A stretch of DNA of 43,670 nucleotides from Clostridiaceae bacterium OM02-2AC (GTDB lineage: Bacteria > Bacillota_I > Bacilli_A > Erysipelotrichales > Erysipelotrichaceae), in the NCBI GenBank assembly GCA_003481775.1, contig QULU01000007.1:1-43670 (forward strand). Reading direction: 5' to 3'. Positions 27,605 through 43,670 of this stretch are shown here, in pieces. The notes beneath the pieces were generated by a model. That model was not told the DNA's origin. It saw nothing but the letters and a program-made list of their open reading frames with translations, and did not search any database. Position numbers and translations under genes: made by a program. Position 1 is the first letter of the stretch; each line of letters begins with the position of its first letter.

Positions 27605-28144
27605 TCACATATAATTTTGAATAATTTGTAAGTTTTCCTCTAATGGCATACTTCCATCTAATAAAATACACTTACAGCCTAATTTCATTTGCCATTCATC
27701 ATGCTTTGCTTTACTTCTCATATCTATACCGCCATTATCATATGCCGCCGCCCAGTTTAAAAATTTCTGATGATTTTCATACATATCTCCGCCTATATCA
27801 ATTCTGTTTCCAAAACGTAGTTGTTCTCGCCTCACCAATCTTTCAATCCTTATGTCCGTGTTAGTTTCTAATCGAATGGCTAATGAAAATAAGGGAATTA
27901 GCTCATCTCCCCAATCAACAAGGGAACCTGCTATAACAATTTTTTCATGTTCATTTATATCTTTTTTCATCATAGATAATCGTTCTGAAGCATCTCTTTT
28001 TTTCGTATAGGGTGGATTGGTTGCTTGCCAAAAGTAATCATCCGTATCCATAAAATAGTAATTCCATTTGACAGATATATATTTGCCAATCGTTGAGGTT
28101 CCAGAACCAGATGCTCCAAATATATGAATCACGTTCTTGCTCAT
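27605..28144 (-). CDS. P-loop nucleotide-kinase-like ATPase
   Basis: Soluble protein of 179 residues with a Walker A loop FGASGSGTSTIGK at residues 9-21 and a later MDTDDYFW acidic segment. The fold is that of small nucleoside/nucleotide or shikimate kinases, often annotated as AAA-family or adenylate-kinase-like. A RLVRREQLRFG arginine-rich lid is present. GAGGAGGAGA precedes the ATG. It is AT-rich compared with the genes to its left and belongs to the island 27.4-31.0 kb. The substrate is unknown. Confidence 0.8.
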   Translation of the reverse strand: MSKNVIHIFGASGSGTSTIGKYISVKWNYYFMDTDDYFWQATNPPYTKKRDASERLSMMKKDINEHEKIVIAGSLVDWGDELIPLFSLAIRLETNTDIRIERLVRREQLRFGNRIDIGGDMYENHQKFLNWAAAYDNGGIDMRSKAKHDEWQMKLGCKCILLDGSMPLEENLQIIQNYM

Positions 28145-28224
28145 CGTATCTCCTCCTCAAATTCTAATTTTCCTTTTTCATAAACTGAAATTTGACACAC
28201 TCTAGAATATCCTCATTTTATATG

Positions 28225-28620
28225 CTACATCTGAAATGCCGTTATCCAAAAACAAAATCCGGCTATAAGCGAAAGCGGAGTCATAACATATTTTTCTTTC
28301 CTACTTTTTGAAATCATGTTCATAATAGTATTCAAGGATAGATAAACGGCAAAGAAGAAACAAATATACTTCGTAGCCTTAAAAGACAACCACAAGGAAA
28401 TAAAACCTCCAGCCTGCAAAACAATTACCATTGCAAAAACTTGGACAGCAAACGAAATAACTGCCACAATTCTAAATTTCTTAGGTAGGGTTTTATGTTG
28501 TCCTCCCATTGTGAATTCGCCCAAAGGCAAACCACAAGCAACAAGAACTGTCATAATTGCTATAACTCCAAATAATACTGCACCTAATATGGAAAGCATA
28601 AAAATATTCTCCCTTCGCAA
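28225..28620 (-). CDS. Four-segment integral membrane protein
   Basis: Membrane protein of 131 residues with four hydrophobic segments: IFMLSILGAVLFGVIAIMTV, IVAVISFAVQVFAMVIVLQ, YICFFFAVYLSLNTIMNMI and PLSLIAGFCFWITAF. A loop with GEFTMGGQHKTLPKKFR lies between the first two. I recall similar small proteins of unknown role in Firmicutes but cannot assign a family. AGGGAGAA precedes the ATG. It is a member of the AT-rich array, with the boundary motif on both sides. Function unknown. Confidence 0.7.
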   Translation of the reverse strand: MRRENIFMLSILGAVLFGVIAIMTVLVACGLPLGEFTMGGQHKTLPKKFRIVAVISFAVQVFAMVIVLQAGGFISLWLSFKATKYICFFFAVYLSLNTIMNMISKSRKEKYVMTPLSLIAGFCFWITAFQM

Positions 28621-28657
28621 AATACAAAAAACTTCAATTACAAATTCTCATTTTCAG

Positions 28658-29308
28658 TTAAAATAAAGTGGAATTTAGTAGTATACCTTTCATAAGTTTT
28701 GATAATTGTTTAGGATTCTCAACCATAATCATATGACAAGAATCATGAATAAACAATATATTGAGATGATTTAAAACCTGTGCAGATAAATTTAAATCCT
28801 GAATCTTTGCTGGATATTCCGACATACCACGGTCACCATAAATCGCATAAATATCCTGTGTAACTTCATTGACTAAAGTGCTATAATCAAAATCAACTTG
28901 AATTGACTTCAATAATTCAGCAGTATAAAATTCCCTTTCTTTACTAAACATTTGAAGAATACTATTTCCATATTTATCCATGTTTTTTTGTGTCATTAAA
29001 TTTCTATAAAATTCATTAGCAGGCTTCAAATTTGTATCCAAATAGATTATTTTATCGACTTTCATTTTATATTTTGCAGTTAATTGCAATGCAATGATTC
29101 CTCCAAGACTATGTCCTATAATTGCATCATAACTGTGATGACCATAGTTTTTATAAACCCATTCAGTAATATCATCAACTTTTTTTGCGTGTAGTGTTAC
29201 TTCATGCGGGTACTCCACATAATCAATTTCAAATTCTTTTAGATAAGGGTCTATAACATTCCATATGTCTTTCGTGCAATTAACACCATACAGTATCAGT
29301 AATCTCAT
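28658..29308 (-). CDS. Alpha/beta hydrolase
   Basis: Alpha/beta-hydrolase-fold enzyme of 216 residues, an esterase- or acyltransferase-like protein. The nucleophile elbow is GHSLGG with Ser67, the acidic residue may lie near DTNLKP or the late IHDSCH segment, and the catalytic histidine is in HDSCHMIMVENP near residue 196. It has no signal peptide, so it is cytosolic. TGGAGGTGA precedes the ATG. It lies in the AT-rich array, 29 bases after the DJ-1/PfpI gene, with a boundary motif between. Substrate unknown. Confidence 0.82.
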   Translation of the reverse strand: MRLLILYGVNCTKDIWNVIDPYLKEFEIDYVEYPHEVTLHAKKVDDITEWVYKNYGHHSYDAIIGHSLGGIIALQLTAKYKMKVDKIIYLDTNLKPANEFYRNLMTQKNMDKYGNSILQMFSKEREFYTAELLKSIQVDFDYSTLVNEVTQDIYAIYGDRGMSEYPAKIQDLNLSAQVLNHLNILFIHDSCHMIMVENPKQLSKLMKGILLNSTLF

Positions 29309-29337
29309 AATTCACCTCCAATAAATTCTAAGGTTTG

Positions 29338-29916
29338 TTAGTACCCCATCGCTTTTTTTACTTCAATGGCTTTTTCTTGTGATGTTAGCATTTTTAATAA
29401 TTGGAAGGCAACATCAGGTGCTGTCTTTGGACATGAAGATGTTATGATAGTATCATCAATCACGATCCATTCATCTCCAAGTATGACGCCAAAATCCTTT
29501 AATTCTTCCCTCTTATATCCGCCACGTAAATGATATGTTGTTGCTTTTCTATTTTTTAATATGCCACTTTTAGCTAAAGGAAAAGCAGCTACACAAACGG
29601 ATGCAATAGGCTTATGAAGTGAATGAAAAGAGCGAATCAAATTCAGAGTTTTTTCATGATACGCTTCCTTATAAAAGCCATATTCTTCAAATCCTCCAGG
29701 TATAGCCAAGGCAGCATATTGACCTGCATCAACATCATCTATTAAAATATCAGATGTTATCGATACTCCAAATGTACTTATAATCGTACGACTAAATCCA
29801 CATATATCAATCTTTATATCACAATCAAAATCATCATGCGCCCATCCAAAAACATCCACAAAAGGGCTAAATTCCATTGTCTCAAAAGCATTTAAACACA
29901 ATAACAATATTTTCAT
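29338..29916 (-). CDS. DJ-1/PfpI-family protein
   Basis: DJ-1/PfpI (class I glutamine amidotransferase-like) protein of 192 residues. The reactive cysteine is Cys108 in IASVCVAAFPLAKSG, preceded by the conserved IPGGFEEYGF. Members include deglycases, isocyanide hydratases, proteases and regulators, and sequence alone does not separate them here. AGGAGAAG precedes the ATG. It belongs to the AT-rich array; the boundary motif lies at 29933-29941, immediately 5' of its ribosome site. No AraC domain is attached. Confidence 0.85.
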   Translation of the reverse strand: MKILLLCLNAFETMEFSPFVDVFGWAHDDFDCDIKIDICGFSRTIISTFGVSITSDILIDDVDAGQYAALAIPGGFEEYGFYKEAYHEKTLNLIRSFHSLHKPIASVCVAAFPLAKSGILKNRKATTYHLRGGYKREELKDFGVILGDEWIVIDDTIITSSCPKTAPDVAFQLLKMLTSQEKAIEVKKAMGY

Positions 29917-29950
29917 AACCTTCTCCTGTCACAAATTCTAATTTATACAA

Positions 29951-30096
29951 TTACTTTGATTGGTGATTTTCTCTGATTTTTTTTAAAATTTCTAATTGTC
30001 GCTTATTCTTCCTATGACTCCTGATTTCCCTTTATGCTTCCTTTACTGCTTCCATATACCTAAAAATATTATTTGGGGTCTTATAGAATTTTTCAT
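29951..30096 (-). pseudogene. Candidate decayed small gene in the array
   Basis: An ATG at 30096 sits 5 bases after a strong AAGGAGG and opens a 17-codon frame (MKNSIRPQIIFLGIWKQ, stop). In another frame the sequence continues as RYMEAVKEA, stop, then REIRSHRKNKRQLEILKKIR and a few more residues to a TAA at 29951. The membrane-like start and basic tail in different frames suggest a small membrane protein lost through a frameshift and a nonsense change. The family is not recognised. It fits the spacing of the array, with boundary motifs on both sides. Confidence 0.35.
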
Positions 30097-30186
30097 TATT
30101 TCCTCCTTAGTATCACCTGTTTTAATGTATTTATTACTGTGTAAACAGAACTATGAATCTATTGTTGTATCTTTATAAATTCCAAA

Positions 30187-31017
30187 TTATCGAACCAAAC
30201 AATACATCATAATTGCTTGCTGAACATATAATAGATATTTTTTGAATTCATATCCAACGAAAAATTCAGATTCTATTATATCGTCTGATATCTCTTCACC
30301 TCTATAGAATGGCGGGCATGGATTCAATACAGCTCCCTTGTTTGCCTTTTTCATTACTTGTGTTGTAACTTTACATTTCTTGAAATGCTCTAACATGGTA
30401 GCCGGAAGTGAATCCGTACAAATAATATCCTTACCTAAAATGGCTTTTTCAATATCATGATGCGTTACGATACCTTCCATTTCATATCCTTCACCACAGC
30501 ATTGCTCTAAATCAAATCCCATAACCTCAGAAGCTTCCTTCCAAGCATATCCTATATTTTTATTTTCTCCACAAAAAAGAAATTTATCTTTTATGAAATT
30601 ATCCCTTATTTTTGAAAGTGCATATAAATCAGAAATAATTTCACATGGATGGTTAACATCAGTCATTGCATTGATCACCGGAACCGAAGAATATCTTGCT
30701 ATTTTTTCCAAGACATGAATATCTTTATGACGTATGACTAATACATCAGCCCAATTGCTTAAATACCCAAAAACATCTTGTAAATCTTCTTTTTTATCAA
30801 GTGTCTCCGTTGGAAACAAAACAGCTTGTCCTCCTAATAAATAGACACCCTTTTCAAATGTAACTCTTGTTCTGATACTGGTATTAGGAAAAAACATAAC
30901 TACGGTTTTCCCTTTAAAAAAGTTTTTGTATTTCCCTTTTAATAGATCATCAGCAATTTCAAAAATTTCATATATATCGGATTTACTATAATCAGTCAAT
31001 CTTATAAGTTCTCTCAT
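30187..31017 (-). CDS. Divergent aspartate/ornithine carbamoyltransferase-family protein
   Basis: Protein of 276 residues from the ATG at 31017 (TGGAGGA upstream), shorter than ornithine carbamoyltransferase (about 310-335). The carbamoyl-phosphate loop is present as FFPNTSIRTRVTFE (residues 43-56), and HPCEIISDL (residue 123 onward) matches the HPxQ motif. The ornithine-specific DxxxSMG is missing; CTDSLPATM stands there, and the HCLP loop is NPCPP. It should therefore bind carbamoyl phosphate but use an acceptor other than ornithine. No arginine-deiminase or arginine-biosynthesis gene adjoins. It heads the AT-rich array. Family sure, activity unknown. Confidence 0.78.
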   Translation of the reverse strand: MRELIRLTDYSKSDIYEIFEIADDLLKGKYKNFFKGKTVVMFFPNTSIRTRVTFEKGVYLLGGQAVLFPTETLDKKEDLQDVFGYLSNWADVLVIRHKDIHVLEKIARYSSVPVINAMTDVNHPCEIISDLYALSKIRDNFIKDKFLFCGENKNIGYAWKEASEVMGFDLEQCCGEGYEMEGIVTHHDIEKAILGKDIICTDSLPATMLEHFKKCKVTTQVMKKANKGAVLNPCPPFYRGEEISDDIIESEFFVGYEFKKYLLYVQQAIMMYCLVR

Positions 31018-31065
31018 GATAAAATCCTCCATAACCTCTATTGCATTTAGCTTTTCCCATAACAT

Positions 31066-31268
31066 GCTTCCTCCTTTCGGGTTAAACCATTATCCTATCA
31101 TCCTGATATAATTTTAAAACCTCTTTAATTACCAATATATAAAATTCTATTTCCGAAAAAACCAGTCAGTCCATACACCCTGTAATCAAAAGGCGCTGCC
31201 ATTTGACAAATTGAATTCTCGCAATAGCCTTTTCCACAATACTTTAAACATGTCTTTGAAGCCAGCGA
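31066..31268. other. AT-rich interval without a gene
   Basis: Separates the carbamoyltransferase-like gene from the TetR gene. It contains one more AAATTCTAT-like motif at 31142-31150, marking the right edge of the island. No coding region or terminator was seen. Confidence 0.4.
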
Positions 31269-31874
31269 TCACGTAGTTCCTCTTTGTAATTTCTGCACAC
31301 GATAAGAAAGATAATCCATAAGCTCCTCCAGCTGCTTCTCATGCCAGTCCGGTGCTATCTGCTCATCCTTTAAACAGCAGGCATGATAAATCAGACCCCG
31401 GGCAGTCGTCAGCAGTCCCCATGTCACATCCTTCACTGCAGTCTTTGAAACCAGCTTACCAACCTCTGCCGCCAACAGTTGAAAAATCGGACGCTGTTCA
31501 TCAAAGAAATAGGTATCATGGTATTTAATATGGCAAATATAGATCTGACGCACGGCGTGCATGTCCTCCAGTGTGACCATCTTCAGATAACAGGTCATGA
31601 TTTTACGAATGCTGTTCCATGCATCCTCCTCCAGCTGCAATGCAAGAAACTGTTCATCCGCCTGACGATAGCCATACAGCAAAGCGGCCTCCTTACAGGA
31701 AAAATATAAATAGAAGGTGCCGATGGATACACCGGCCTTATTACATACGCTACGGATGGTGATATCACTAAGATCTGCTTCCTTCATACTCGCATGAATC
31801 GCCTCAACAATTTTTCTTCTTGTTTTTTCCGTCTGATTCGGGCGCCGCCGTATTTCCTTTTCTTCCACGCTCAT
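31269..31874 (-). CDS. TetR-family transcriptional regulator
   Basis: Repressor of 201 residues. The N-terminal TetR domain spans about 12-60, with RRKIVEAIHASMKEADLSDI and TIRSVCNKAGVSIGTFYLYF as the helix-turn-helix. The rest is a helical ligand and dimer domain. It is divergent from the enoate-reductase-type gene at 32006, and the intergenic region has a palindrome just downstream of that gene's -10 site, the expected operator. It most likely represses the reductase until its substrate or a related ligand is present. TGAGTGT precedes the start; no further gene follows in its transcript. Confidence 0.87.
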   Translation of the reverse strand: MSVEEKEIRRRPNQTEKTRRKIVEAIHASMKEADLSDITIRSVCNKAGVSIGTFYLYFSCKEAALLYGYRQADEQFLALQLEEDAWNSIRKIMTCYLKMVTLEDMHAVRQIYICHIKYHDTYFFDEQRPIFQLLAAEVGKLVSKTAVKDVTWGLLTTARGLIYHACCLKDEQIAPDWHEKQLEELMDYLSYRVQKLQRGTT

Positions 31875-31939
31875 ACACTCACCTGCTTTGTGTCTTCATT
31901 GTAACGTATCCGTTAAAAAAACACAACGCAAACCAGCCC

Positions 31940-31988
31940 TTGACTTTTTCTATGTAAGTGCTATCATTTAATTAAATGAACACGTTCA
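31940..31988 (+). promoter_or_regulatory. Promoter and TetR operator of the third reductase
   Basis: TTGACT at 31940-31945 and TATCAT at 31962-31967, 16 bases apart, form a promoter. Directly after it, TGAAC-AC-GTTCA (31977-31988) is an inverted repeat that would cover the transcription start, and TTTAATTAAA lies between. Binding by the divergent TetR protein is inferred. Confidence 0.7.
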
Positions 31989-32005
31989 CTTAAAGGAGGA
32001 ACATC

Positions 32006-34585: not shown

Positions 34586-35275
34586 TCAGCTGTTCAACCC
34601 CTTCGTCCCTTCCTTAACTCCTATGGATACACTCCCCTGGATACAGGCCCCCTGTTCCACACTGATCGTTCCGGTCATGATATCACCGATGATCTGGGCA
34701 TCCGCACTCAGCCGGATATTGTTTGCCGCTCGCACATCCCCATGGATACTGCCCCCGTTTTCCAATGAGGAGGTGATGATATTCCCTTCCACCTTCGTCT
34801 CCTGCGAGATATTCAGGGAATTTTTGCATTCGATACTGCCCTGTATCGCCGCCTTGACAATCACGGCATCCTGACAGATGATGTCGCCTTCCACACTGCC
34901 GTACACCTGGATGCTCTTACTGCATTTGATATTGCCCTTGATACGGCCATGGATGATTAGATCATCATCTGTATTCACATCCCCTGTCAGTTCCGTATGT
35001 TCTCCAATCACGGATGCTTCCTCACGCGCTGTTTCATGCTCATCAAAAGTTCTGTTCGTTTCCATCGTTCTTCTGTTCTCCTTTTCCGCCTGTGCTCTGA
35101 GCTGGCGTTCCTGTTCCATCTGTATTCGTTTTTCTTCCTCCGCGCGTGCGGCCTGTTGTCGTTTGAATTCCTCTGCCCGTATGGCCTCCTGCCTGTCTTC
35201 CTGCTGGTATTCTTTTTCTTCCTGCTGCTTCACTTCTTCAGTCTTCTTTGTCTTCTGATTCCAGATCACGGGCAT
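34586..35275 (-). CDS. Bactofilin with long charged coiled-coil N-terminus
   Basis: Polymer-forming cytoskeletal protein (bactofilin) of 229 residues. Residues about 5-85 are rich in E, K, Q and R (KQQEEKEYQQED, RAEEEKRIQMEQERQLRAQA) and predicted coiled coil. The bactofilin beta-helix follows, with rung-like repeats such as GDVNTDDDLIIHGRIKGNIK, VYGSVEGDIICQDAV and GSIHGDVRAA. It has no membrane segment. AAGGAGG lies one base before the ATG at 35275; a GTG six bases later has better spacing, so the exact start is uncertain. It is the last gene of the surface cluster, behind a membrane-anchored bactofilin with which it may co-polymerise. Confidence 0.82.
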   Translation of the reverse strand: MPVIWNQKTKKTEEVKQQEEKEYQQEDRQEAIRAEEFKRQQAARAEEEKRIQMEQERQLRAQAEKENRRTMETNRTFDEHETAREEASVIGEHTELTGDVNTDDDLIIHGRIKGNIKCSKSIQVYGSVEGDIICQDAVIVKAAIQGSIECKNSLNISQETKVEGNIITSSLENGGSIHGDVRAANNIRLSADAQIIGDIMTGTISVEQGACIQGSVSIGVKEGTKGLNS

Positions 35276-35294
35276 TCCTCCTTCACTTTCTCTT

Positions 35295-36107
35295 CTACAA
35301 ATCGTATGTCGCTTCTCCATATGGGATCGCTTCGATCCTCATCCTTCCCTGAATGGATGCACCTTCCTCCACCTCGATCTCCATGGATGTCACATCTCCT
35401 ACCAGATACGAGGATTTCTCCATCCTGACACTCTCTCTGACATATGCATTTCCCTTCATATAGCCCTTGTGCAACATCCGCCAGGCTACGATATCTCCAA
35501 TCACGATACTCTTCGGTGACAGATAGATTGTTTCATTGCACTGGATATCGCCCTCCAGCTCTGCTTTATCGACAAACAGATTCTGACATCGCAGGTTTCC
35601 ATTCACCCTGCCAAACAGGCGGATATCCCCCTTGCAATATACATTGCCCTCGACGATGCCATAGATAGAAAGATCCCGCTGTACCTCGACATCGCCATGG
35701 ATGTGCATATCCTCCGGGATCAGCGTAGCGCTCTCTTTGACCGGTTGGACAGGTAAAGACTCCACCAATACCGGCTTGACAACTGTCTGTGTGATTGGCT
35801 TCTGCTGCTTTGCTTTCTGTTCCTTCTCCTGTACGGGCTTCTTGTTTGGAAAATAACGCTGATACAGCTTTTGGATACCACGACCAAGCAGTACCATGAG
35901 CAGACCCCATTTTAGAAGCATCGCCATGAGGCTTCCCTGCTTCGTATCAGCCCACACCTGCATAATCTGCAGGATGAGAATCAAAAGGGGGATACCGATG
36001 AAGATCAGCTGATCCACATACTCCTTAAGCACGAGGAAGATGACCTCAGTGGTTGATTTCTTCCGCTTCCTGCGGGGTGATAAGATCGTATCCTCCTTTT
36101 CCTTCAT
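35295..36107 (-). CDS. Membrane-anchored bactofilin
   Basis: Bactofilin of 270 residues with a membrane anchor. A basic N-terminus (RRKRKK) precedes two hydrophobic segments (about 34-51, IFIGIPLLILILQIMQVW, and 60-78). A KEQ-rich linker leads to the beta-helix domain (about 130-262), with rungs such as MHIHGDVEVQRDLSIYG, GNVYCKGDIRLFGRVNG and GDIQCNETIYL. Bactofilins polymerise without nucleotide and scaffold envelope machinery. Anchoring by two segments and pairing with a soluble coiled-coil bactofilin suggest a membrane-bound filament. GAGGG precedes the ATG. The downstream bactofilin starts 19 bases after its stop. Confidence 0.82.
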   Translation of the reverse strand: MKEKEDTILSPRRKRKKSTTEVIFLVLKEYVDQLIFIGIPLLILILQIMQVWADTKQGSLMAMLLKWGLLMVLLGRGIQKLYQRYFPNKKPVQEKEQKAKQQKPITQTVVKPVLVESLPVQPVKESATLIPEDMHIHGDVEVQRDLSIYGIVEGNVYCKGDIRLFGRVNGNLRCQNLFVDKAELEGDIQCNETIYLSPKSIVIGDIVAWRMLHKGYMKGNAYVRESVRMEKSSYLVGDVTSMEIEVEEGASIQGRMRIEAIPYGEATYDL

Positions 36108-36141
36108 CGTCTACCCTCATTTCCTTATATCACGAATCTTT

Positions 36142-36600
36142 CTACTGCAAGACCTTCTTCGCATATTTATAAAAGGTTGCCTTTTTTAGACCGGTCGCCT
36201 TGCGATATGTCTCCAGCGGCTGTTCATTGCGGACACATTTTCTGACCTGTTCTTCAAAATCCTGCGGCAGTTCCACCTGTGGTCTACCATAGGTTCCTTG
36301 TCCGCTTCGCTGCTTAGCCAACGCACGATCAATCCCAACGCGCTGTGCCTTCTTCAGCTCCTGCTTCTTATGCTCCTCTTCATGTGTGATCAGGTCGATG
36401 ATATCCTGTGCCAGCTCCTCATCGATGACCACATCCCGCAGTTTGAGCCGTATTGCCATGGAGGAACAGTAGTGCAGTTTCTCAACGACACTACCATCTT
36501 CTCTGCACAAATCCTGTAACGTATCCATCTGCAGGACATCATGCCTATTTAGCTTTCCCTTCAGTTCCTTCCAGTTCGATTCATATGTCCATAAGCACAT
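36142..36600 (-). CDS. Serine-recombinase-like DNA-binding protein, catalytic part lost (copy 2)
   Basis: Protein of 152 residues resembling a resolvase that lacks its first 45-50 residues. ELKGKLNRHDVLQMDTLQDL corresponds to the (L)REGDTLVVxxLDRLGR region, then comes the helix EEEHKKQELKKAQRVGIDRA, GTYGRPQVELPQDFEEQ and a C-terminal helix-turn-helix ending KKATFYKYAKKVL. The catalytic serine strand and the DRLGR arginines are absent (DTLQDL), so no recombinase activity is expected. The ATG at 36600 follows GAGG at 8 bases and aligns with the start of its paralogue at 37832. It is probably a DNA-binding regulator. It follows the thioredoxin-like lipoprotein gene by 13 bases. Confidence 0.65.
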   Translation of the reverse strand: MCLWTYESNWKELKGKLNRHDVLQMDTLQDLCREDGSVVEKLHYCSSMAIRLKLRDVVIDEELAQDIIDLITHEEEHKKQELKKAQRVGIDRALAKQRSGQGTYGRPQVELPQDFEEQVRKCVRNEQPLETYRKATGLKKATFYKYAKKVLQ

Positions 36601-36613
36601 CGTCATCACCTCA

Positions 36614-37483
36614 TCATTGCTTTTTGAACCATGCGATCAGCTCATCCTCACTGACATTGTCCTTCAACACATCGACCTCTTTCCCGTCTTTTATGCGAAA
36701 TAAGGATGGTGCGATCTCAATCGTCATCGCCTTGTTGATGGTCTCGATTGCTGCATTCATCTCTTCGTTTTCCTTCTCGCTCGTCGGCTGTTCCATTTTG
36801 GAATTGTTCAGCTGGATGATCTCTACCTTATGCTTTTCCGCATAGGTCTTCAGCTTTTTGGAAAAGGCCGAATTATAGCGATCTTCTGCTGCAAAGTAGA
36901 AATAGAAGTCCTTCTTCTCCTTCAACAGCTTCGCGATGTCTGTGATCGAGCTGTCCTTGAGCTGTTTGCTTTCCGCCAGCGTATAGCTCTCTGTTTTTTC
37001 TTCCTGCTTCTTTCCCTTGACCAGGCCGCACTCGATCATGAAATTGTTCCACGCGATCTCACTCATCTCCCCACTCTGCTGCTTCTGCAGGGTACCGTCC
37101 TTGAAATACAGATATTCCGGTGTAGATCCGCTGAAGCTTGGCACCAGCGACTGCAACTTGGTGAAGCTCGCCTCCGTATCCGAAACCTTATCACCTAGCA
37201 TATCCATCTCGATTTCAAAGAATGGGACATCCCCGTGCTCTCGGAAATACGGGATGAGGGTACGCTTCATCGTATTGCAGTAGGAACAGGTGCTCTGAGT
37301 GATCATCACCATGAACCCATCCTTGTCTTTGATCTTCTTTTCCAGCTCCTTCAGATCCATCTGCTTCAGGGTAGCGCTGTCGGATCCTGTGGCTGCAGTC
37401 TTCTTCTCCTGTGTGCTTGTACAGCCCATCAGGCATGCGCCGCACACTAGCAGCACGGCCATCGTTTTCCATAATCTTCTCAT
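36614..37483 (-). CDS. Lipoprotein with two thioredoxin-like folds
   Basis: Extracytoplasmic lipoprotein of 289 residues. The signal peptide ends in a lipobox ACLMGC (lipidated Cys21). A first thioredoxin-like domain (about 42-160) has the redox pair Cys66-x-x-Cys69 in TQSTCSYCNTMKR. A second region (about 170-289) has a similar strand-helix pattern (DFYFYFAAEDRYNSAFSKKL, then IEIAPSLFRIKDGKEV with the cis-proline), but AAEDRYNS replaces CxxC, so it is a redox-dead copy. GAGGAG precedes the ATG. It probably acts as a membrane-tethered thiol oxidoreductase or folding factor for proteins secreted by this cluster; that is inference. Confidence 0.78.
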   Translation of the reverse strand: MRRLWKTMAVLLVCGACLMGCTSTQEKKTAATGSDSATLKQMDLKELEKKIKDKDGFMVMITQSTCSYCNTMKRTLIPYFREHGDVPFFEIEMDMLGDKVSDTEASFTKLQSLVPSFSGSTPEYLYFKDGTLQKQQSGEMSEIAWNNFMIECGLVKGKKQEEKTESYTLAESKQLKDSSITDIAKLLKEKKDFYFYFAAEDRYNSAFSKKLKTYAEKHKVEIIQLNNSKMEQPTSEKENEEMNAAIETINKAMTIEIAPSLFRIKDGKEVDVLKDNVSEDELIAWFKKQ

Positions 37484-37498
37484 ATTCTCTCCTCATTC

Positions 37499-37825
37499 TT
37501 ATTCATAGGTACTACCTTCATTATGCTTCACTACCGCATACAGGATGATAGCCAGGATACATACTACCCATTTCCCGATCCTTGCACTCTGCCATGCCAC
37601 CTCACGCAGCTCCAGTGGAAGCAGTTTATAAGCGAACAGCTGCGTCATGAACATGACAGCATATACAGCGAACAGGATCCAGATGCACATCGTCAGCCTG
37701 CGGTTGTTCTGCTCATATCTGTCCTCCATCACCTGCTTCTTCTGCTTCAGCGCTTCACAGCGCTCTTCCTGTTTGCGGTGTTCCTGTCTGATCTCCTCGA
37801 TCCGTTTCTGTTCGATATTCATCAT
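37499..37825 (-). CDS. Coiled-coil protein with two membrane segments
   Basis: Membrane protein of 108 residues. The first 45 residues are a highly charged coiled coil (EQKRIEEIRQEHRKQEERCE and onward to YEQNNRR), followed by two hydrophobic segments (about 47-66, WILFAVYAVMFMTQLF, and 85-99, WVVCILAIILYAVV). Both ends are predicted cytoplasmic. ATGATG at the start follows AGGAGAAG. It is placed between the recombinase-like copy 1 and the lipoprotein gene, with gaps of 6 and 15 bases. It could link the membrane complex to the coiled-coil bactofilin, which is speculation. No family recognised. Confidence 0.7.
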   Translation of the reverse strand: MMNIEQKRIEEIRQEHRKQEERCEALKQKKQVMEDRYEQNNRRLTMCIWILFAVYAVMFMTQLFAYKLLPLELREVAWQSARIGKWVVCILAIILYAVVKHNEGSTYE

Positions 37826-37831
37826 CTTCTC

Positions 37832-38290
37832 CTATTCCAGTACCATCCGCGCATATTTGTAAAACGTCGATTTCTTAAGGTTCGTCTTCCTGCGGTATGC
37901 CTCCAGTGATAAATGGTTTTTTTTCAGATAGCGGATCTGCTCGTCAAAATCCTCCGGGATCTCCGCTCTCGGCCTCCCATAGTTCCCCATTCCCAATCGA
38001 CTCCTTTCCAGCGCTTTTCGGATTCCCCTTTGCTGAGCGGTTTTCACACGGTCTCTTCGCAAATTTTCCTCTCGTTCCATCACACTGAGAAAATCCATAT
38101 AGATGTCTTCCTGCAGACAGATGCCCTTTAGACAGATACGTACACCGCTTTCCTTACAGTACTGCAGCTTCTCTCGGATACCGCTGTGCATGTCGCTCAG
38201 CTCCTTCAGTGTAGAGATCACTAGGATATCATCACGCTTTAGCTGTCCCTTCAGCTGTCCCCAGTTGTTTTCCATCGTCCAGATACACAT
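37832..38290 (-). CDS. Serine-recombinase-like DNA-binding protein, catalytic part lost (copy 1)
   Basis: Protein of 152 residues, paralogous to the gene at 36142: both start MC(I/L)WT, share (Q/E)LKG(Q/K)L(K/N)R(D/H)D(I/V)L, GNYGRPRAEIPEDFDEQ versus GTYGRPQVELPQDFEEQ, and the ending KKSTFYKYARMVLE versus KKATFYKYAKKVLQ. Like that copy it lacks the catalytic serine region, and the DRLGR site reads STLKEL. GAGGAG is 9 bases before the ATG. It is preceded by 118 bases containing two strong hairpins, which separate it from the membrane-protein trio. A role as a regulator acting on DNA or its own operon is likely. Confidence 0.65.
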   Translation of the reverse strand: MCIWTMENNWGQLKGQLKRDDILVISTLKELSDMHSGIREKLQYCKESGVRICLKGICLQEDIYMDFLSVMEREENLRRDRVKTAQQRGIRKALERSRLGMGNYGRPRAEIPEDFDEQIRYLKKNHLSLEAYRRKTNLKKSTFYKYARMVLE

Positions 38291-38332
38291 ATTCTCACTC
38301 TCCTCAGATTCTTATTCTGTATCTTGATCCTC

Positions 38333-38397
38333 ATAGGATGGCGGATCATACGATACACCATCCTATCAGGACCCCTGATATCACACAGATATCAGGG
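38333..38397 (-). promoter_or_regulatory. Double hairpin in the intergenic leader
   Basis: Two perfect stems follow each other in the 118-base gap: CCCTGATATC/GATATCAGGG (38373-38382 with 38388-38397) and ATAGGATGG/CCATCCTAT (38333-38341 with 38358-38366). Neither is followed by a T-run, so they are not ordinary terminators. They may be an RNA-processing or stability element, or palindromic DNA sites for the recombinase-like proteins. Confidence 0.6.
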
Positions 38398-38408
38398 AGC
38401 TGATACGA

Positions 38409-39164
38409 TCATTTCTTACTTTCCAGAGCCACCAGCACGGTCTGAACCTCTCCGCTGTTGAGCTCCTGTTTATAGTCCGTCACATCAAAGGTCTTCACTC
38501 GGATGGTGATAGGATACTCCCCCTTCGCGAAGCTGCGATTGAAGGTGATGTTGCGAATCGCCATACCCGGCGGTACCAGTCGGCTCTCATAAATTACAGA
38601 GTGATTGCTCCGTAGTTCTATGACGAATTTGAAATACACCTGATTCTTTTCCGGATTCCACAGGGCAGCACCTGCCTGATCCGTATCGGCCTGCATGTTA
38701 ATCTTATTGTAGGCAGGAATGATGAAGGAGGTCTTGCCATAATCATCCGGCAGGCCTTTTGCCGCCTGAAACTGCTGCAAGCCGGGCTCCAGATCCGGAC
38801 CGCTCTCTCTGTTCAGGAAATAGAACAAGGAGCCACAGACAAGAAGTAAGAGAAGCAACAGCAACAGCAGCAGCTTGATCCAGCTGCGCTTCAATACGAC
38901 GAGGTAGGTTTCATCTTCGCATTGGATATACCCCGCAGGCTTGTACAGATGCCTGTTATATTCCAGGTCCTGAAAGTCCATTTCCATTCCGTCGATCGAT
39001 ACCGTGCCTAGCGTATGTTTCCCTTTGCCATGCACACTGCCGACGATGATGGCTCCCTTTCTCTGCAGATGTTCAAAGGCTTCGACGCTGAAACAGCGGA
39101 TCTGTATTCCCTTTTGTACCGTACAGCTTTGATCATATGATTCGATCAGCTCATATCGTTTCAT
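38409..39164 (-). CDS. Single-pass membrane protein, trio member 3
   Basis: Bitopic protein of 251 residues. A cytoplasmic domain (1-95: IQIRCFSVEAFEHLQRKG, HLYKPAGYIQCEDETYLVVL) is followed by a leucine-rich membrane segment (97-118) and an extracellular beta-rich domain (120-251). The outer domain has FIIPAYNKINMQA, LWNPEKNQVYFKF, YESRLVPPG and LNSGEVQTVL. The same layout and motifs occur in the two genes upstream. The start overlaps the previous stop (ATGA). I recognise no named family; the outer domain resembles modules seen in surface-structure loci of Clostridia. Probably transmits or anchors an external assembly. Confidence 0.72.
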   Translation of the reverse strand: MKRYELIESYDQSCTVQKGIQIRCFSVEAFEHLQRKGAIIVGSVHGKGKHTLGTVSIDGMEMDFQDLEYNRHLYKPAGYIQCEDETYLVVLKRSWIKLLLLLLLLLLLVCGSLFYFLNRESGPDLEPGLQQFQAAKGLPDDYGKTSFIIPAYNKINMQADTDQAGAALWNPEKNQVYFKFVIELRSNHSVIYESRLVPPGMAIRNITFNRSFAKGEYPITIRVKTFDVTDYKQELNSGEVQTVLVALESKK

Positions 39165-39943
39165 TTTTGATCACCTGTATCCTTAACGACGTTTAGTGAA
39201 GTTTCAACTTCTCCGCCATTCATCTGCTGTTCATATTCTTCAATATCATATGTCGACACCCGCACGATCAGCGGATAGACACCCGCATCAAAGCTGCGTT
39301 TTAAAGATAACTCATAGATTGCCTGTCCCGGCGGCACTAATCGGCTTTCATAGATGACTTCCTGTGTATTTTTCAAAACGAGCTGAAACTGAAAATACAC
39401 CTGATTCTTTTCCGGGTTCCACAGCACCGTCTTGACACCCGTATCCCCTGCGCGGACATTCAGTGGCTGGAAGGCGGGTATGATGATCCTCGTCTCTCCG
39501 TAATCATCCGATAGCTTCTGTGCCGCCTTGAAATCCCGTGTACCCGGCTCCAGATCTGGACCGCTTCGTCCCATGCCCCGATAAAGGAATAGACCGAAAA
39601 GGATGAGCAATGCCAGAAGCAGGAACAGCAGCAGGAATTTTCGTATGCGAAGCTGCAGGATGACCAGATACGTATCATCCTCACATAGTACATAGCCATA
39701 CGGCTCATAGAGGTGCTTGTTGTAGGTACAGCGGTAGATTGGCAGGACGTCGTCCTCCAGATGCAGCTTCCCGCATTCCTCTTTTGCACCCTTACCGATG
39801 ATACCAGACAACAGATAGCCTCCGTTTTCATGACGCCGCTCGAATTCCTTCCGGCTGTAACATGCAATCTGGATATCTTCATCCAGATTCCTTACGGCAT
39901 CATAGTCCGAACAGTCCCGAAACACCTGCATGCGCTCATCCAC
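39161..39943 (-). CDS. Single-pass membrane protein, trio member 2
   Basis: Protein of 260 residues with the same plan: cytoplasmic domain (IQIACYSRKEFERRHENGG, HLYEPYGYVLCEDDTYLVIL), membrane segment at about 103-121, and an outer domain with IIIPAFQPLNVRAGDT, LWNPEKNQVYFQF, YESRLVPPGQAIYEL and MNGGEVETSL. It starts at a GTG, 9 bases after AGGAG. It overlaps trio member 1 by 8 bases and member 3 by 4 bases, so the three are translationally coupled. It is the closest relative of member 3; a recent duplication is likely. Confidence 0.72.
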   Translation of the reverse strand: MDERMQVFRDCSDYDAVRNLDEDIQIACYSRKEFERRHENGGYLLSGIIGKGAKEECGKLHLEDDVLPIYRCTYNKHLYEPYGYVLCEDDTYLVILQLRIRKFLLLFLLLALLILFGLFLYRGMGRSGPDLEPGTRDFKAAQKLSDDYGETRIIIPAFQPLNVRAGDTGVKTVLWNPEKNQVYFQFQLVLKNTQEVIYESRLVPPGQAIYELSLKRSFDAGVYPLIVRVSTYDIEEYEQQMNGGEVETSLNVVKDTGDQK

Positions 39944-40694
39944 TTCGCTTCACTCCTGTCAGCTTCACTTCCACCTTCGCACCGTTCAATGGGACATCCT
40001 CATCCTCCAGATCGAAGGTATCGACTGCAATCGAGATATCTCGTGTCCCTGCCTCGATCACCTCGGAAAGCTCTACATCTTTAACAGCCTTACCCGGTGC
40101 GACCAGCTTGCTTGCATATAATACATTCCCACTCTTCACATCTGTGATCGTGAATTTGAAGTAGCAGGTATTCTTCTTCGGATTCCATAACGCCACATGT
40201 AGAACATTTGTCCCTGCTTCGATTTTCATATCATGATAGGCAGGAAATGCGATATGATTCGGGTCAGGATCGATGGATTCCCCGTTTACTGGACTGAAGT
40301 CCACCGCGTTTTCATCCAGTGCCGTATTCCTTCCAAGCATGTACATTCCACCCATCAGAGCACCAATCAGTGCCAGTAATAAAAATAGCAGCAAGAGATG
40401 ACGGGGAACATGATTTCTAATCACCGCATAATAGCCTTCTCCATCATCACATGCTGCATATCCGTCGACCCCATACCGCCATTTTGCATAATGCAGTGCA
40501 TAGCATGGATAACACTCTGAATCGATCCTCACTTCTCCTGTCTGATCCTTCAGTCCCTCACCGATGCCACCAAGCAGAAGGTAGCCCCCTTCGGGGTACC
40601 TTCTCTTCATGGCTCTGCGACTGTAATAGTTCAGACAGCTTCCATCATGCTTCCAGTGTTTGTCAGGTGCCTGTCTGTCGCTCAATACGCTCAC
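39936..40694 (-). CDS. Single-pass membrane protein, trio member 1
   Basis: Protein of 252 residues, the most divergent of the trio. The cytoplasmic domain contains YYSRRAMKRRYPEGGYLLLG and GEVRIDSECYPCY, the membrane segment is at about 99-120, and the outer domain has IAFPAYHDMKIEAGTN, LWNPKKNTCYFKF, YASKLVAPGKAV and LNGAKVEVKLTG. The GTG start at 40694 has only a weak ribosome site; a TTG four codons on is an alternative. It lies 23 bases behind the secreted-protein gene and begins the coupled trio. Function unknown. Confidence 0.68.
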   Translation of the reverse strand: MSVLSDRQAPDKHWKHDGSCLNYYSRRAMKRRYPEGGYLLLGGIGEGLKDQTGEVRIDSECYPCYALHYAKWRYGVDGYAACDDGEGYYAVIRNHVPRHLLLLFLLLALIGALMGGMYMLGRNTALDENAVDFSPVNGESIDPDPNHIAFPAYHDMKIEAGTNVLHVALWNPKKNTCYFKFTITDVKSGNVLYASKLVAPGKAVKDVELSEVIEAGTRDISIAVDTFDLEDEDVPLNGAKVEVKLTGVKRSG

Positions 40695-40717
40695 TCACTT
40701 TCTTATAGTGTTGTTTC

Positions 40718-41293
40718 TTAAGGTGTTACCGTAGTTGTAGAGATTGTATAGATCAGCTTGTCGGTATGATTACCGGTCATCAATGCGTTGGACAGCTTCA
40801 CTGCCATACCTTTGATTTTTAGATTATCCTCAGACAGTTTTCCAATCTCAAAATCTGTGTTCTTCGCGATCGGTGCATTCGTCATCGCTCCGGATTTCTC
40901 ATATCCCAGTGTATACTTCAGGGAATCCGGTTCATCCGGATCATTTAGTTTCATCTCATAGCCGTTTTCTGATTTTACCTTAACTGTAACAGCATTGGCA
41001 GCATCCGGATATCCGGGGTTCTTATCTGCGGACAGATCCACCAGCTTCACATCAGCACGGATAGATGAAATCTTATCTGTAAAGGTAATTGCCTTCGGTA
41101 CTTCCACACCCCAAGTCGCAGGCGCTCCATCCGGATTCTCGATGATCGTAGCGTTGTTGTAGCTTACCGTCGTACTGTCCGGATTCGTTCCCTGTCCGTC
41201 ATTACTTCCGTCTGTTGCGAATATTGGCATTGCGAACATACCGGCTGCCATCGTCAATGCCATCGTTGCGGTAAAAACTCGTGTCTTTTTCAT
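40718..41293 (-). CDS. Secreted beta-rich surface protein (internal start in a fused frame)
   Basis: A 191-residue secreted protein starting at the ATG at 41293: signal peptide KKTRVFTATMALTMAAGMFA cleaved after MPIFA, then a beta-rich domain (TWGVEVPKAITFTDK, VKSENGYEMKLN, LGYEKSGAMTN, LIYTISTTTVTP). It resembles small repeated surface subunits of Firmicutes whose strands end in TVTP. An ideal AGGAGG lies 8 bases before this ATG (complement of 41302-41307), so separate translation is likely. The frame is nevertheless continuous with the upstream gene at 41995, with no stop between them. It lies directly before the membrane trio. Likely the secreted partner or subunit of the surface assembly. 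Confidence 0.65.
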   Translation of the reverse strand: MKKTRVFTATMALTMAAGMFAMPIFATDGSNDGQGTNPDSTTVSYNNATIIENPDGAPATWGVEVPKAITFTDKISSIRADVKLVDLSADKNPGYPDAANAVTVKVKSENGYEMKLNDPDEPDSLKYTLGYEKSGAMTNAPIAKNTDFEIGKLSEDNLKIKGMAVKLSNALMTGNHTDKLIYTISTTTVTP

Positions 41294-41995
41294 TTTCATT
41301 TCCTCCTGTTTGTTATATTCTTCCTCAGACAATCTACGCTTTCGCTCTGCCATGATCAGCATGGCGGCCAGCATCAGGATCAGATATGGTACGGTATCCG
41401 TATGGTCTGCGGTATCAACGACATCATTTCCACTGTTTCCGTCGTCCCCCACAGCACCAGCCAGATTTCCATCCTTACCTGGTACCTCTTCATATACCAC
41501 GATAAGCTTCGTATCCACACTTTCCGTCTGTATCTCTATCTTGTTGTCGACCAGCTGATCCGTAACATCGATGATGTTCTCAGGCAGTGGACCGGCATAT
41601 CGCGCCAGCAACACATCCTCATCCTCTGCTAGCGCCATTGCCATTGCCGGTGTTGCCGCATCATCCATAGACGGACTGTCTGTTGAAAGTTCATGCATGT
41701 CAGCCTGTAATCTCTCATAGCTGACCTGTTTTACCCGGTAGCCTTCTTCCGGCTCCAATATAAATTCCTTGACGACCCCGGGCGCCGTCTCATAGGTCAG
41801 GCTTGTTCGGATATACTGTCTTCCGTCCCGAACGACACCTCTTCCGATCACCTGTACATTCAAGCGATAGACACTGTCTTCGTTCACATCGAAGCCGACC
41901 TCTGCTTCACTGCTTGCCTCACCCGCATGGATCGTTCCCAAAGACATCATGACCATGAGATACATCAGAGGCAGCACCCATAATCTCCTTCTCAT
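40718..41995 (-). CDS. Cell-wall-anchor-like surface protein, open frame fused to the next secreted protein
   Basis: Open frame of 425 residues. Residues 1-27 form a signal peptide (LWVLPLMYLMVMMSLG). An extracellular region (28-205) follows, including SVYRLNVQVIGRGVV and EPEEGYRVKQVSYERL. Then comes a C-terminal anchor-like segment: DTADHTDTVPYLILMLAAML followed by ERKRR, the hydrophobic-plus-basic tail of sortase substrates, though without LPxTG. Where a stop is expected the frame runs on through SEEEYNKQEE into a second signal peptide (residue 235 onward). A TAA lies one base out of frame at this point. It starts at an ATGA overlap with the large secreted-protein gene. Whether a true fusion is made is unclear. 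Confidence 0.65.
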   Translation of the reverse strand: MRRRLWVLPLMYLMVMMSLGTIHAGEASSEAEVGFDVNEDSVYRLNVQVIGRGVVRDGRQYIRTSLTYETAPGVVKEFILEPEEGYRVKQVSYERLQADMHELSTDSPSMDDAATPAMAMALAEDEDVLLARYAGPLPENIIDVTDQLVDNKIEIQTESVDTKLIVVYEEVPGKDGNLAGAVGDDGNSGNDVVDTADHTDTVPYLILMLAAMLIMAERKRRLSEEEYNKQEEMKMKKTRVFTATMALTMAAGMFAMPIFATDGSNDGQGTNPDSTTVSYNNATIIENPDGAPATWGVEVPKAITFTDKISSIRADVKLVDLSADKNPGYPDAANAVTVKVKSENGYEMKLNDPDEPDSLKYTLGYEKSGAMTNAPIAKNTDFEIGKLSEDNLKIKGMAVKLSNALMTGNHTDKLIYTISTTTVTP

Positions 41996-43670
41996 GGCTG
42001 CTTACCTTCATCTTTCTTTCCATATTTCACGGTATAGGTCATCAGTCCGTCATATTCACCTCTATACTTCTCCTTTTCAGGATTCGTAACTATCGGTGTC
42101 TTCAATGTGAAACCTGCTTCTGTCTTCGCATCATAGATAAGTGATGCCAGAAGGTTTTTGTCACTTGTCAGTTTCTTACCAGCTTCGTCAAATACCGATA
42201 CGACATAGGTCTCTCCAGTCTTTGATTCTGCATTGTTCAATGTGATCTCATGTGGTGTATACACATTGAAATACTGCGTGATATCCTGACCTGCAGGCTT
42301 ATCTTCCTCTTTCACGGTGATCAGTTCCAACTTGTCACTACCTACAGCTTCTTTCCCGTCTACTGTATTTTTTAACTGTATCCGTTTCGGTGTGATGATA
42401 TAGGAAGCAGCATCATTCAGCAGCAGATCAACAGGCAGTTCAAATTCCTGGGTCACCTTATTTCCAGCATTACTTTCAACTTCCATCTTGATTCTGATCG
42501 TACCGACTTCTACCTTGTTATCTACCATTTCATCGATATATGCCTGAATTGGGAAATAGGTATCATAATTTACAGCATCCTTATCCAGAGTATAGATTGG
42601 TGTTTTTTCTGTAGTACCCTTGATGACCGCCTGATTGTCGATGCTTTCAACCCCCAACGGTGTTGTGATATCGCCCGTGTTTTTTAACAATGTTGTCACG
42701 GTCTCCTCACAATCATCTACCTGCATGGTATATGTAATCTGTTTAATACCGGATACCGGTGCTTCAATCTTCATAGGATAGATATACGTCTTATCGTAAT
42801 TCTCACGTGTAATCTTTTCCGGCACTTTCTCTGTCTCCGTTTCATCTTTTACTACTGTTATTTTTGGCTTATCACTTGGTTCATTGATGAGCTGCATCGT
42901 TTCCAGTGTCGTTGTCTTACCAGCATTATTCACTGCCACAATGCGAATACTTCCCTTGAATTCATCATTTATCAGGAATGTAGCTGTTTTCTTCTTAACT
43001 GCAAAGGTACCTTCCTCAACACCCGGTACAGTACTATTTTCATCACTTAGCGTAGCATCTGTTATTTCTGTAGTATTTCCATCCTTATCAACTTTATATA
43101 TGGTTAAGGAACGGATTCCACTCTCCTCATCAACGACACTCGTTGTGATATTCAGTCCATCCTTAGAGAAGCGTTTCCCCTGTACTGATCCAGCATCCGG
43201 AATTGAAGCTGGTATATTGCTATCATTTACACTGATAAACGGCTTTACAGGTGCACTCTCATCCACACGCACGGATCTCTTGGCATTTGCTGAACCTGTA
43301 AAGGCTCCGGTCACTGGATCACGGAAGCGCAATTCATACTTCTTCGGACTTGTTCCGGCATCCTTATCATGTGTGAAGTCATCCGTCCAGTCCCATGTTT
43401 CTGGTTTATCCGCATTTCCCTTTTTCTCTACATCAGTATTGATAATTTTGCTATAGGTTCTCACATTATTTGCTTCAGCACTCCCTGTTGTAGCTTTATC
43501 TGTGGGTTTCATAGTGACTGTACTGCCATTCCATGCTTCACTATCTTTTTTCACCAGATTTTCCAAATCCGGTGTTATCGTATACCAGTCTTCTGTGAAG
43601 CTGTCCTGAGTGACCTTCAGTATCTTATCAGCACCTTTATCTGCTGTTTTGGAATCTATGAAATTGATAT
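41992..43670 (-). CDS. Large secreted Ig-like surface protein (5' end outside window)
   Basis: The frame is open to the window edge: about 558 residues are visible and the true start lies beyond 43670. A TTG at 43566 could be mistaken for a start but has no ribosome site, and coding continues upstream (INFIDSKTADKGADKILKV). The visible part is a string of Ig-like beta domains, for example APVKPFISVNDSNIPASI, VVDEESGIRSLTIYKVDKDG, AVNNAGKTTTLETMQL and a C-terminal module ending YDGLMTYTVKYGKKDEGKQP. No membrane anchor or LPxTG is present at the C-terminus. It is the likely main adhesin or matrix protein of the cluster, with its stop overlapping the next start (ATGA). Confidence 0.7.
   Translation of the reverse strand, partial: INFIDSKTADKGADKILKVTQDSFTEDWYTITPDLENLVKKDSEAWNGSTVTMKPTDKATTGSAEANNVRTYSKIINTDVEKKGNADKPETWDWTDDFTHDKDAGTSPKKYELRFRDPVTGAFTGSANAKRSVRVDESAPVKPFISVNDSNIPASIPDAGSVQGKRFSKDGLNITTSVVDEESGIRSLTIYKVDKDGNTTEITDATLSDENSTVPGVEEGTFAVKKKTATFLINDEFKGSIRIVAVNNAGKTTTLETMQLINEPSDKPKITVVKDETETEKVPEKITRENYDKTYIYPMKIEAPVSGIKQITYTMQVDDCEETVTTLLKNTGDITTPLGVESIDNQAVIKGTTEKTPIYTLDKDAVNYDTYFPIQAYIDEMVDNKVEVGTIRIKMEVESNAGNKVTQEFELPVDLLLNDAASYIITPKRIQLKNTVDGKEAVGSDKLELITVKEEDKPAGQDITQYFNVYTPHEITLNNAESKTGETYVVSVFDEAGKKLTSDKNLLASLIYDAKTEAGFTLKTPIVTNPEKEKYRGEYDGLMTYTVKYGKKDEGKQP

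Follow-up and report, generated by a model that had tools for sequence, protein, structure and literature searches.

A run of leftward genes at one end of contig QULU01000007.1 of Clostridiaceae bacterium OM02-2AC (GenBank assembly GCA_003481775.1) raises the question of whether secreted proteins, membrane proteins and bactofilins encoded side by side make up a single system. The whole stretch of DNA analysed, positions 1 to 43,670 of the forward strand, is referred to here as the window. The cluster lies on its minus strand, from 43668 to 34586, and consists of two parts: a surface module of secreted proteins (g1, g2, g3) and a trio of membrane proteins (ta, tb, tc), and, behind a structured gap of 118 bp, a second block (r1, cc, trx, r2, bac1, bac2). 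The original prediction had described an unrecognised surface gene cluster built around bactofilins; its gene set, order, leftward orientation and most of its motifs were found as described. The surface module was found in several groups of Bacillota with its adjacency conserved, and it exists independently of the second block. Sequence comparisons mark the cluster as a version of a WxL-like display module that is specific to one clade and carries bactofilins; no family library searched covers this module. No description of the cluster or of the surface module was found in the open-access literature, subscription journals lying outside this coverage.

The surface module in other Bacillota

A secreted-protein gene adjoined the membrane-protein gene in 25 of 30 loci outside the window, compared with 14 of 145 background genes, in keeping with the earlier claim of a surface gene cluster. 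Adjacency was defined as a distance of ≤150 bp on the same strand to a neighbour with a predicted signal peptide (called by a crude hydropathy rule), and the background comprised 145 genes farther off in the same loci, which span 7.6 to 18.3 kb. In the five non-adjacent loci, the anchor was missed by the gene caller (L040, L054 and L075), was a many-stop copy (L072), or had no secreted neighbour (L046). The 30 loci are not 30 independent cases, because some form close pairs (e.g., L039/L040, L041/L042, L050/L051 and L073/L074) or come from common genomes.

These loci were collected from several searches. A scan of genome contigs with the trio alignment gave 20 pattern matches, two of which were real relatives, from an uncultured Clostridia bacterium (L001) and Granulicatella balaenopterae (L002). 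A plasmid search with tb gave five records, three of which were included (H2 and H4 were left out). With profile A3 (1e-8), the membrane protein was detected in 17 of 381 genomes sampled from the class of the uncultured Clostridia genome, a count that includes that genome itself, whose sequence is part of the profile; 18 of the 20 matches were used, without the L001 copy and G715. Profile A1 detected it in three of 398 genomes of Granulicatella’s class at 1e-6, Granulicatella itself included (G308 and G104 were used), and in eight of 393 genomes of its phylum at 1e-8, of which five were used and three had already been found by other searches. No trio relative was found in viral contigs.

The G. 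balaenopterae locus encodes a long-form membrane protein that matches tb at a phmmer E of 1.9e-38, a short protein with an FPQTG motif, a large secreted protein of 1016 amino acids, and a g3 homologue that is likewise small and secreted (phmmer E 4.4e-14). Farther upstream on the same contig, past several leftward genes, are a class B sortase and a LytTR/GHKL two-component pair. In Enterococcus raffinosus, E. mundtii and Ruminococcus albus, plasmids encode shorter forms of the membrane protein that lack the cytosolic domain. On the E. mundtii plasmid pLDW-8 (L007/L059), typed as conjugative, a classical WxL cluster follows the module approximately 5 kb downstream. Another long-form membrane protein, P0013 (34% identical), has 41 member sequences on 40 contigs.

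Within the window, ta, tb and tc proved to be three paralogous single-pass membrane proteins, as had been proposed, the outer two being 42% and 32% identical to tb in the middle. In the AlphaFold model of tb, the outer domain, with a predicted local distance difference test (pLDDT) score of mostly 80–96, is an immunoglobulin (Ig)-like beta sandwich, and the protein has one helix. No Pfam or NCBIfam model covers the membrane proteins and small proteins tested. A likeness of the outer domain to accessory-Sec Asp3 (E 0.1–0.14) was taken as noise.

The small secreted proteins align with a rough common pattern, Y-x-x-TIPA ... GxYxxTLTF. A profile of 15 of them matched the C-terminus of larger proteins in L052 (7.1e-13), L001 (1e-11), L008 (9.1e-8) and L007 (1.6e-7, a leucine-rich-repeat (LRR)-type protein), and the N-terminal front of a beta-helix protein of R. 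albus (L006, 5.2e-27). Thus five of nine larger proteins carry the terminal domain at 1.6e-7 or better, with the best reversed control at 0.032; the profile includes small proteins from the L006, L007 and L008 loci and none from L001 or L052. Two further secreted proteins, each with a predicted signal peptide, have a ubiquitin domain (PF00240) followed by the terminal domain, namely L006:13301-14041 of R. albus pRUMAL01 (7.8e-31 and 3.8e-20, respectively) and L001:14009-14986 of the uncultured Clostridia (1.9e-11 and 5.7e-19). Both ubiquitin-like fronts (2/2) were thus joined to the terminal domain, which was scored with a profile lacking the R. albus row, and their genes are near that of the membrane anchor, a few genes away. 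The cargo front ends vary among LRR, beta-helix, GLUG and ubiquitin, and one terminal domain is common to some of them; such different front ends on one terminal domain are what a display system requires.

Against the EF2685/EF0750 sortase-dependent family, short proteins of five of eight loci scored 4.1e-6 to 2e-8 without reaching the family cut-off, nor did the R. albus short protein reach it (0.0024); those of L047 and the window (g2) gave no match. EF2685 and EF0750 belong to WxL operons. Besides FPQTG in Granulicatella, the motifs YPATG and NPATG occur in the E. raffinosus and R. albus loci, and the LPXTG model reached its cut-off or better in two of the eight short proteins (L002 and L056). 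The window’s g2 has no recognised motif and matched the Granulicatella FPQTG protein at a phmmer E of 0.014.

Comparison with WxL clusters

WxL clusters are described as consisting of a small WxL protein, a large one with the WxL domain at its C-terminus, a bitopic Ig-like WxLIP (DUF916-DUF3324-transmembrane helix) and often an LPxTG protein (PMC9772566, PMC10599100). They are reported to display host-binding proteins, and 99% of firmicute WxL proteins are placed in Bacilli (PMC9772566). The module resembles WxL (csc) clusters in having a small domain-only protein together with larger proteins, some of which carry the same domain behind varied fronts (four of nine clearly at the C-terminus), a bitopic Ig-like membrane protein and, in several loci, a short putative sortase-type protein. 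It differs in lacking the WxL motif, PF13731 and PF06030/PF11797, in having one Ig-like outer domain after the transmembrane helix whereas WxLIP has two with the helix last, and in occurring in Clostridia, whereas the 99% figure of PMC9772566 places WxL proteins in Bacilli.

PF13731 matched neither g3 nor the open reading frame joining g2 and g3, with an E. mundtii WxL protein as control at 1.6e-49. The tripeptide W-x-L was absent from g3 and from the incomplete g1, and its sole copy in g2 lies in the signal peptide. PF06030 and PF11797, which scored 3e-34 and 4.4e-50 on the positive control, matched none of ta, tb, tc or the 11 rows of A3. The WxLIP structures 9i1y and 9i25 were not among the best 50 rows of a fold search, from which no conclusion was drawn. 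On this evidence, the module appears to work like a WxL cluster without being a member of that family. If Clostridia and other Bacillota have a WxL counterpart unrelated in sequence, many “hypothetical” surface genes would gain a role that can be put to the test, with the terminal domain as a handle for discovering new cargo.

Gene organization and the second block

The cluster comprises 11 open frames, all leftward, and probably about 12 genes, instead of the ten units first proposed; the leftward run itself was as described. The higher gene count is probable because the frame at 40718-41995 joins g2 and g3 in frame and stopless, with an internal AGGAGG and an ATG at 41293, and g3 has its own signal peptide. 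A true fusion, a lost stop and a sequence error look alike in this stopless frame. From upstream to downstream, the gaps between frames are -4, 23, -8, -4, 118, 6, 15, 4, 34 and 25 bases, the last presuming a GTG start of bac2 (the tool’s ATG at 35320 would overlap bac1). The tight coupling claimed earlier (overlaps or gaps mostly under 25 bases) therefore holds save in one place, because only the 118-bp gap before r1 breaks the run. The window end truncates the upstream-most frame, g1. Sites resembling promoters or terminators were no more frequent in the cluster region than in shuffled sequence.

Table 1 Features of the cluster, from upstream to downstream.
Feature	Position	Strand	Description	Evidence
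g1	41992..43668	-	C-terminal part of large secreted protein	open frame, incomplete at window end
g2	41300..41995	-	short surface protein; signal peptide, C-terminal hydrophobic stretch and RKRR	frame common with g3
g3	40718..41293	-	small secreted protein, terminal domain only	phmmer match; alignment of small secreted proteins
ta	39936..40694	-	single-pass membrane protein; cytosolic N-domain, Ig-like outer domain	sequence, paralogy
tb	39161..39943	-	same family as ta	paralogy; AlphaFold model
tc	38409..39164	-	same family as ta and tb	paralogy
gap	38291..38408	.	118-bp intergenic gap; two inverted repeats, each with 9-base arms that match perfectly	repeats at 38374-38396 and 38333-38366
r1	37832..38290	-	predicted resolvase-derived DNA-binding protein without catalytic N-terminal part	profile comparison, alignment
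cc	37499..37825	-	coiled-coil membrane protein; coiled coil and two hydrophobic stretches (authors’ reading)	sequence
trx	36614..37483	-	lipoprotein with CxxC thioredoxin-like domain	signal, LMGC and CSYC read in sequence
r2	36142..36609	-	paralogue of r1 (43% identity), likewise resolvase-derived	alignment
bac1	35295..36107	-	bactofilin; two N-terminal hydrophobic (transmembrane) stretches	PF04519 2.4e-22
bac2	34586..35269	-	soluble bactofilin	PF04519 2.9e-24, scored on longer ATG frame from 35320

The two inverted repeats upstream of r1 are CCTGATATC-n5-GATATCAGG and ATAGGATGG-n16-CCATCCTAT, and the RNA fold of the gap was far better than that of shuffles (z -5.35). No other copies of the repeats occur within the window with ≤3 mismatches allowed; the heptamer CCTGATA occurs three times in the gap and 11 times across the whole window (both strands). 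The gap is a candidate operator or RNA element, and we infer that its palindromes could be the operator of r1 and r2. A terminator reading was rejected, the gap having no T-tract and being missing from the terminator list.

The proposed descent of r1 and r2 from serine recombinases was confirmed by a 98% profile-profile probability to two full-length resolvases, aligned from residue 51 or 76 onward; the alignment to PDB 2r0q started at residue 56 (E 0.0092). Like the resolvase/invertase recombinases (PDB 2r0q, Tn552 DNA-invertase bin3), r1 and r2 keep the C-terminal part of the catalytic fold, the long helix and the helix-turn-helix; unlike them, they miss the first 50–75 residues. The active serine of serine recombinases lies in this N-terminal part, whose absence from r1 and r2 was seen in three resolvase alignments and in the multiple alignment. 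Among eight aligned rows (relatives 36–99% identical; the short fragments P0019 and P0020 were omitted), the helix-turn-helix residues are conserved and the catalytic part is absent in all eight. Binding of DNA without recombination is likely, because the helix-turn-helix is kept while the catalytic N-terminal part is missing. Viral contigs held four resolvase relatives of r1 and r2, and plasmids gave 32 records with recombinase-type matches to r1.

The redox lipoprotein trx was borne out by its motifs (Table 1), and its thioredoxin-like matches (PF13098 at 2.1e-5, TIGR01295 at 3.2e-12) are both under curated cut-offs; viral contigs gave no match for it. No family reached its cut-off for cc. 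Both bactofilins were recovered by PF04519 (Table 1), as predicted. The GTG start of bac2 at 35269 was our choice, with AGGAGG 7 nt upstream; the resulting N-terminus, MIWNQKTKK, resembles the membrane-targeting peptide MFSKQAKS of PMC12448750. A plasmid search with bac1 gave three weak bactofilins.

As described in PMC12448750, BacA of Caulobacter recruits the bitopic PbpC via its cytosolic tail, and N-terminal transmembrane bactofilins, approximately 3.2% of homologues, are speculated there to form more static assemblies. The window is similar in that bactofilin genes lie beside genes for bitopic membrane proteins whose N-terminal part is cytosolic; it differs in that a surface-protein anchor, rather than a cell wall synthase, would be the client, and in that bac1 has transmembrane helices. 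By this analogy, it is plausible that bactofilin filaments position surface proteins from inside the cell.

The second block appears, as far as seen, to be a clade-specific addition to the module, because none of the 30 outside loci matched its bactofilins or r1/r2, yet the window, and apparently two more metagenome contigs, carry both parts together. Linkage was inferred from equal contig sizes: 28,657 bases for P0002 (trio, 88%) and P0025 (bac1, 83%), and 13,697 bases for P0017 (r1, 85%) and P0023 (bac1, 90%). Equal sizes were also noted for P0012 (trio) and P0018 (r1, 64%) at 1,434 bases, for P0001, P0010 and P0014 at 104,809, and for P0003 and P0011 at 9,079. Absent coincidences are uninformative, because contig data are given only in part (for the cluster identical to bac1, a single contig of 1,694 bases). 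Close relatives sought through window proteins were found in 0/398 class-level genomes at 1e-40; at 1e-80, window proteins matched 56/398 (best identity 37%), and six of 12 chosen genomes matched with a best identity of 39%.

Weighing the explanations

We tentatively interpret the cluster as a platform for surface display that functions in the manner of a WxL cluster, with cargo, anchors, a bactofilin scaffold and recombinase-derived regulators, an interpretation that, with all of its steps taken jointly, falls a little short of probable. Secreted cargo and small one-domain proteins would share an all-beta terminal domain, as seen in the outside loci and suggestively in g1, and the three bitopic proteins would hold their Ig-like domains outside and dock it. 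Bac1 and bac2 would form a membrane-bound scaffold clustering the trio anchors via their cytosolic N-domains of ~95 residues, by analogy with BacA and PbpC. The CxxC lipoprotein may service thiols or disulphides outside the cell, and r1 and r2, whose catalytic loss was observed, would be recombinases turned DNA-binding regulators, with the paired palindromes upstream of r1 as their possible site of action.

Several results weigh against this interpretation. On the side of the bactofilins, the bactofilin and r1/r2 profiles matched in none of the 30 outside loci, and the controls were all found (3/3 bactofilin loci, 5/5 resolvase loci and both window bactofilins). Among 13 module-bearing genomes, five had a bactofilin match at 1e-4 and three above the cut-off, those three on contigs other than the module’s; Granulicatella, despite its long-form membrane protein, had a sole weak match (28.9 bits, cut-off 27.9), also on another contig. 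On the side of the surface module, g1 possibly ends in the terminal domain, the match of residues 412-549 to the small-protein profile (domain i-E 4e-4) being suggestive only because the whole-sequence E is just 1.3. The large protein of Granulicatella (L002) matched weakly (0.037 for the domain), and those of L056 (772 amino acids) and L055 (783 amino acids) did not match, leaving three of the nine larger proteins without a significant match. An NCBIfam scan of g2 gave no match and hence no recognised sorting signal. The models of g3 (mean pLDDT 50) and of the trio’s cytosolic N-domain were poor, and the outer domain reached an hhalign probability of 4% to WxLIP, with a single-sequence template. 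The 118-bp gap also allows two separate units.

This last point leads to a rival account in which a surface-display operon (g1 to tc) neighbours an unrelated envelope/cytoskeleton operon (r1 to bac2), the latter driven by a separate promoter within the gap, an account that we consider doubtful but quite possible. The strong inverted repeats in the gap and the lack of the second block in 30/30 outside loci speak for it, whereas the two parts recur together on two other metagenome contigs at 83–90% identity, judged by equal sizes, and relatives of each part are few among 5.8 billion proteins: six for bac1 (61–100% identical, at 1e-10), eight for r1 and 13 for the long-form trio (both at 1e-3). 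These results also bear on the original prediction, which had named independent occurrence of the genes in related genomes as evidence against it. In part this is what the outside loci show, where the surface genes occur without relatives of the bactofilins or of r1 and r2, and “built around bactofilins” finds no support as a generality; in the close clade, the parts appear to travel together on the two contigs. The idea of one structure with an internal filament is supported in part, with a surface half that stands independently and a filament link that stays conditional.

In a chaperone-pilin system, the Ig-like outer domains would offer platforms for donor strands in the way of PapD, and a fibre would form by polymerisation of the small secreted proteins. 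We regard this as improbable. The protein ta matched the PapD-like family PF14874 at E 0.012, under the cut-off, and had no NCBIfam match. That the cluster is the remnant of a mobile element, with the resolvase-like genes as decaying recombinases, seems very improbable: the serine recombinase descent of r1 and r2 is firm, but two intact paralogues are present, the helix-turn-helix is conserved across the eight aligned rows, all of which lack the catalytic part, r1 was unmatched in the phage collection, and the G+C content of the cluster (46–49%) is similar to that of most of the window.

The display-platform interpretation can be widened to an uncurated, Bacillota-wide parallel to WxL display, in which a terminal beta domain and an Ig-like anchor present arbitrary cargo (LRR, beta-helix, secreted ubiquitin) and which, in the window’s clade, became an inside-out organelle, with a scaffold of transmembrane and soluble bactofilins that gathers the anchors and with recombinase-derived repressors; in this full form we think it unlikely. 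If the bactofilin link is true, the anchors of surface proteins in a Gram-positive cell would be arranged by a filament inside it, making such anchors a new type of bactofilin client.

Elsewhere in the window, the G+C content drops to 32–37% at 28001-32000, compared with 42–51% in the other 2-kb steps. This region holds alpha/beta hydrolase, DJ-1/PfpI, carbamoyltransferase-like and TetR genes and was possibly acquired.

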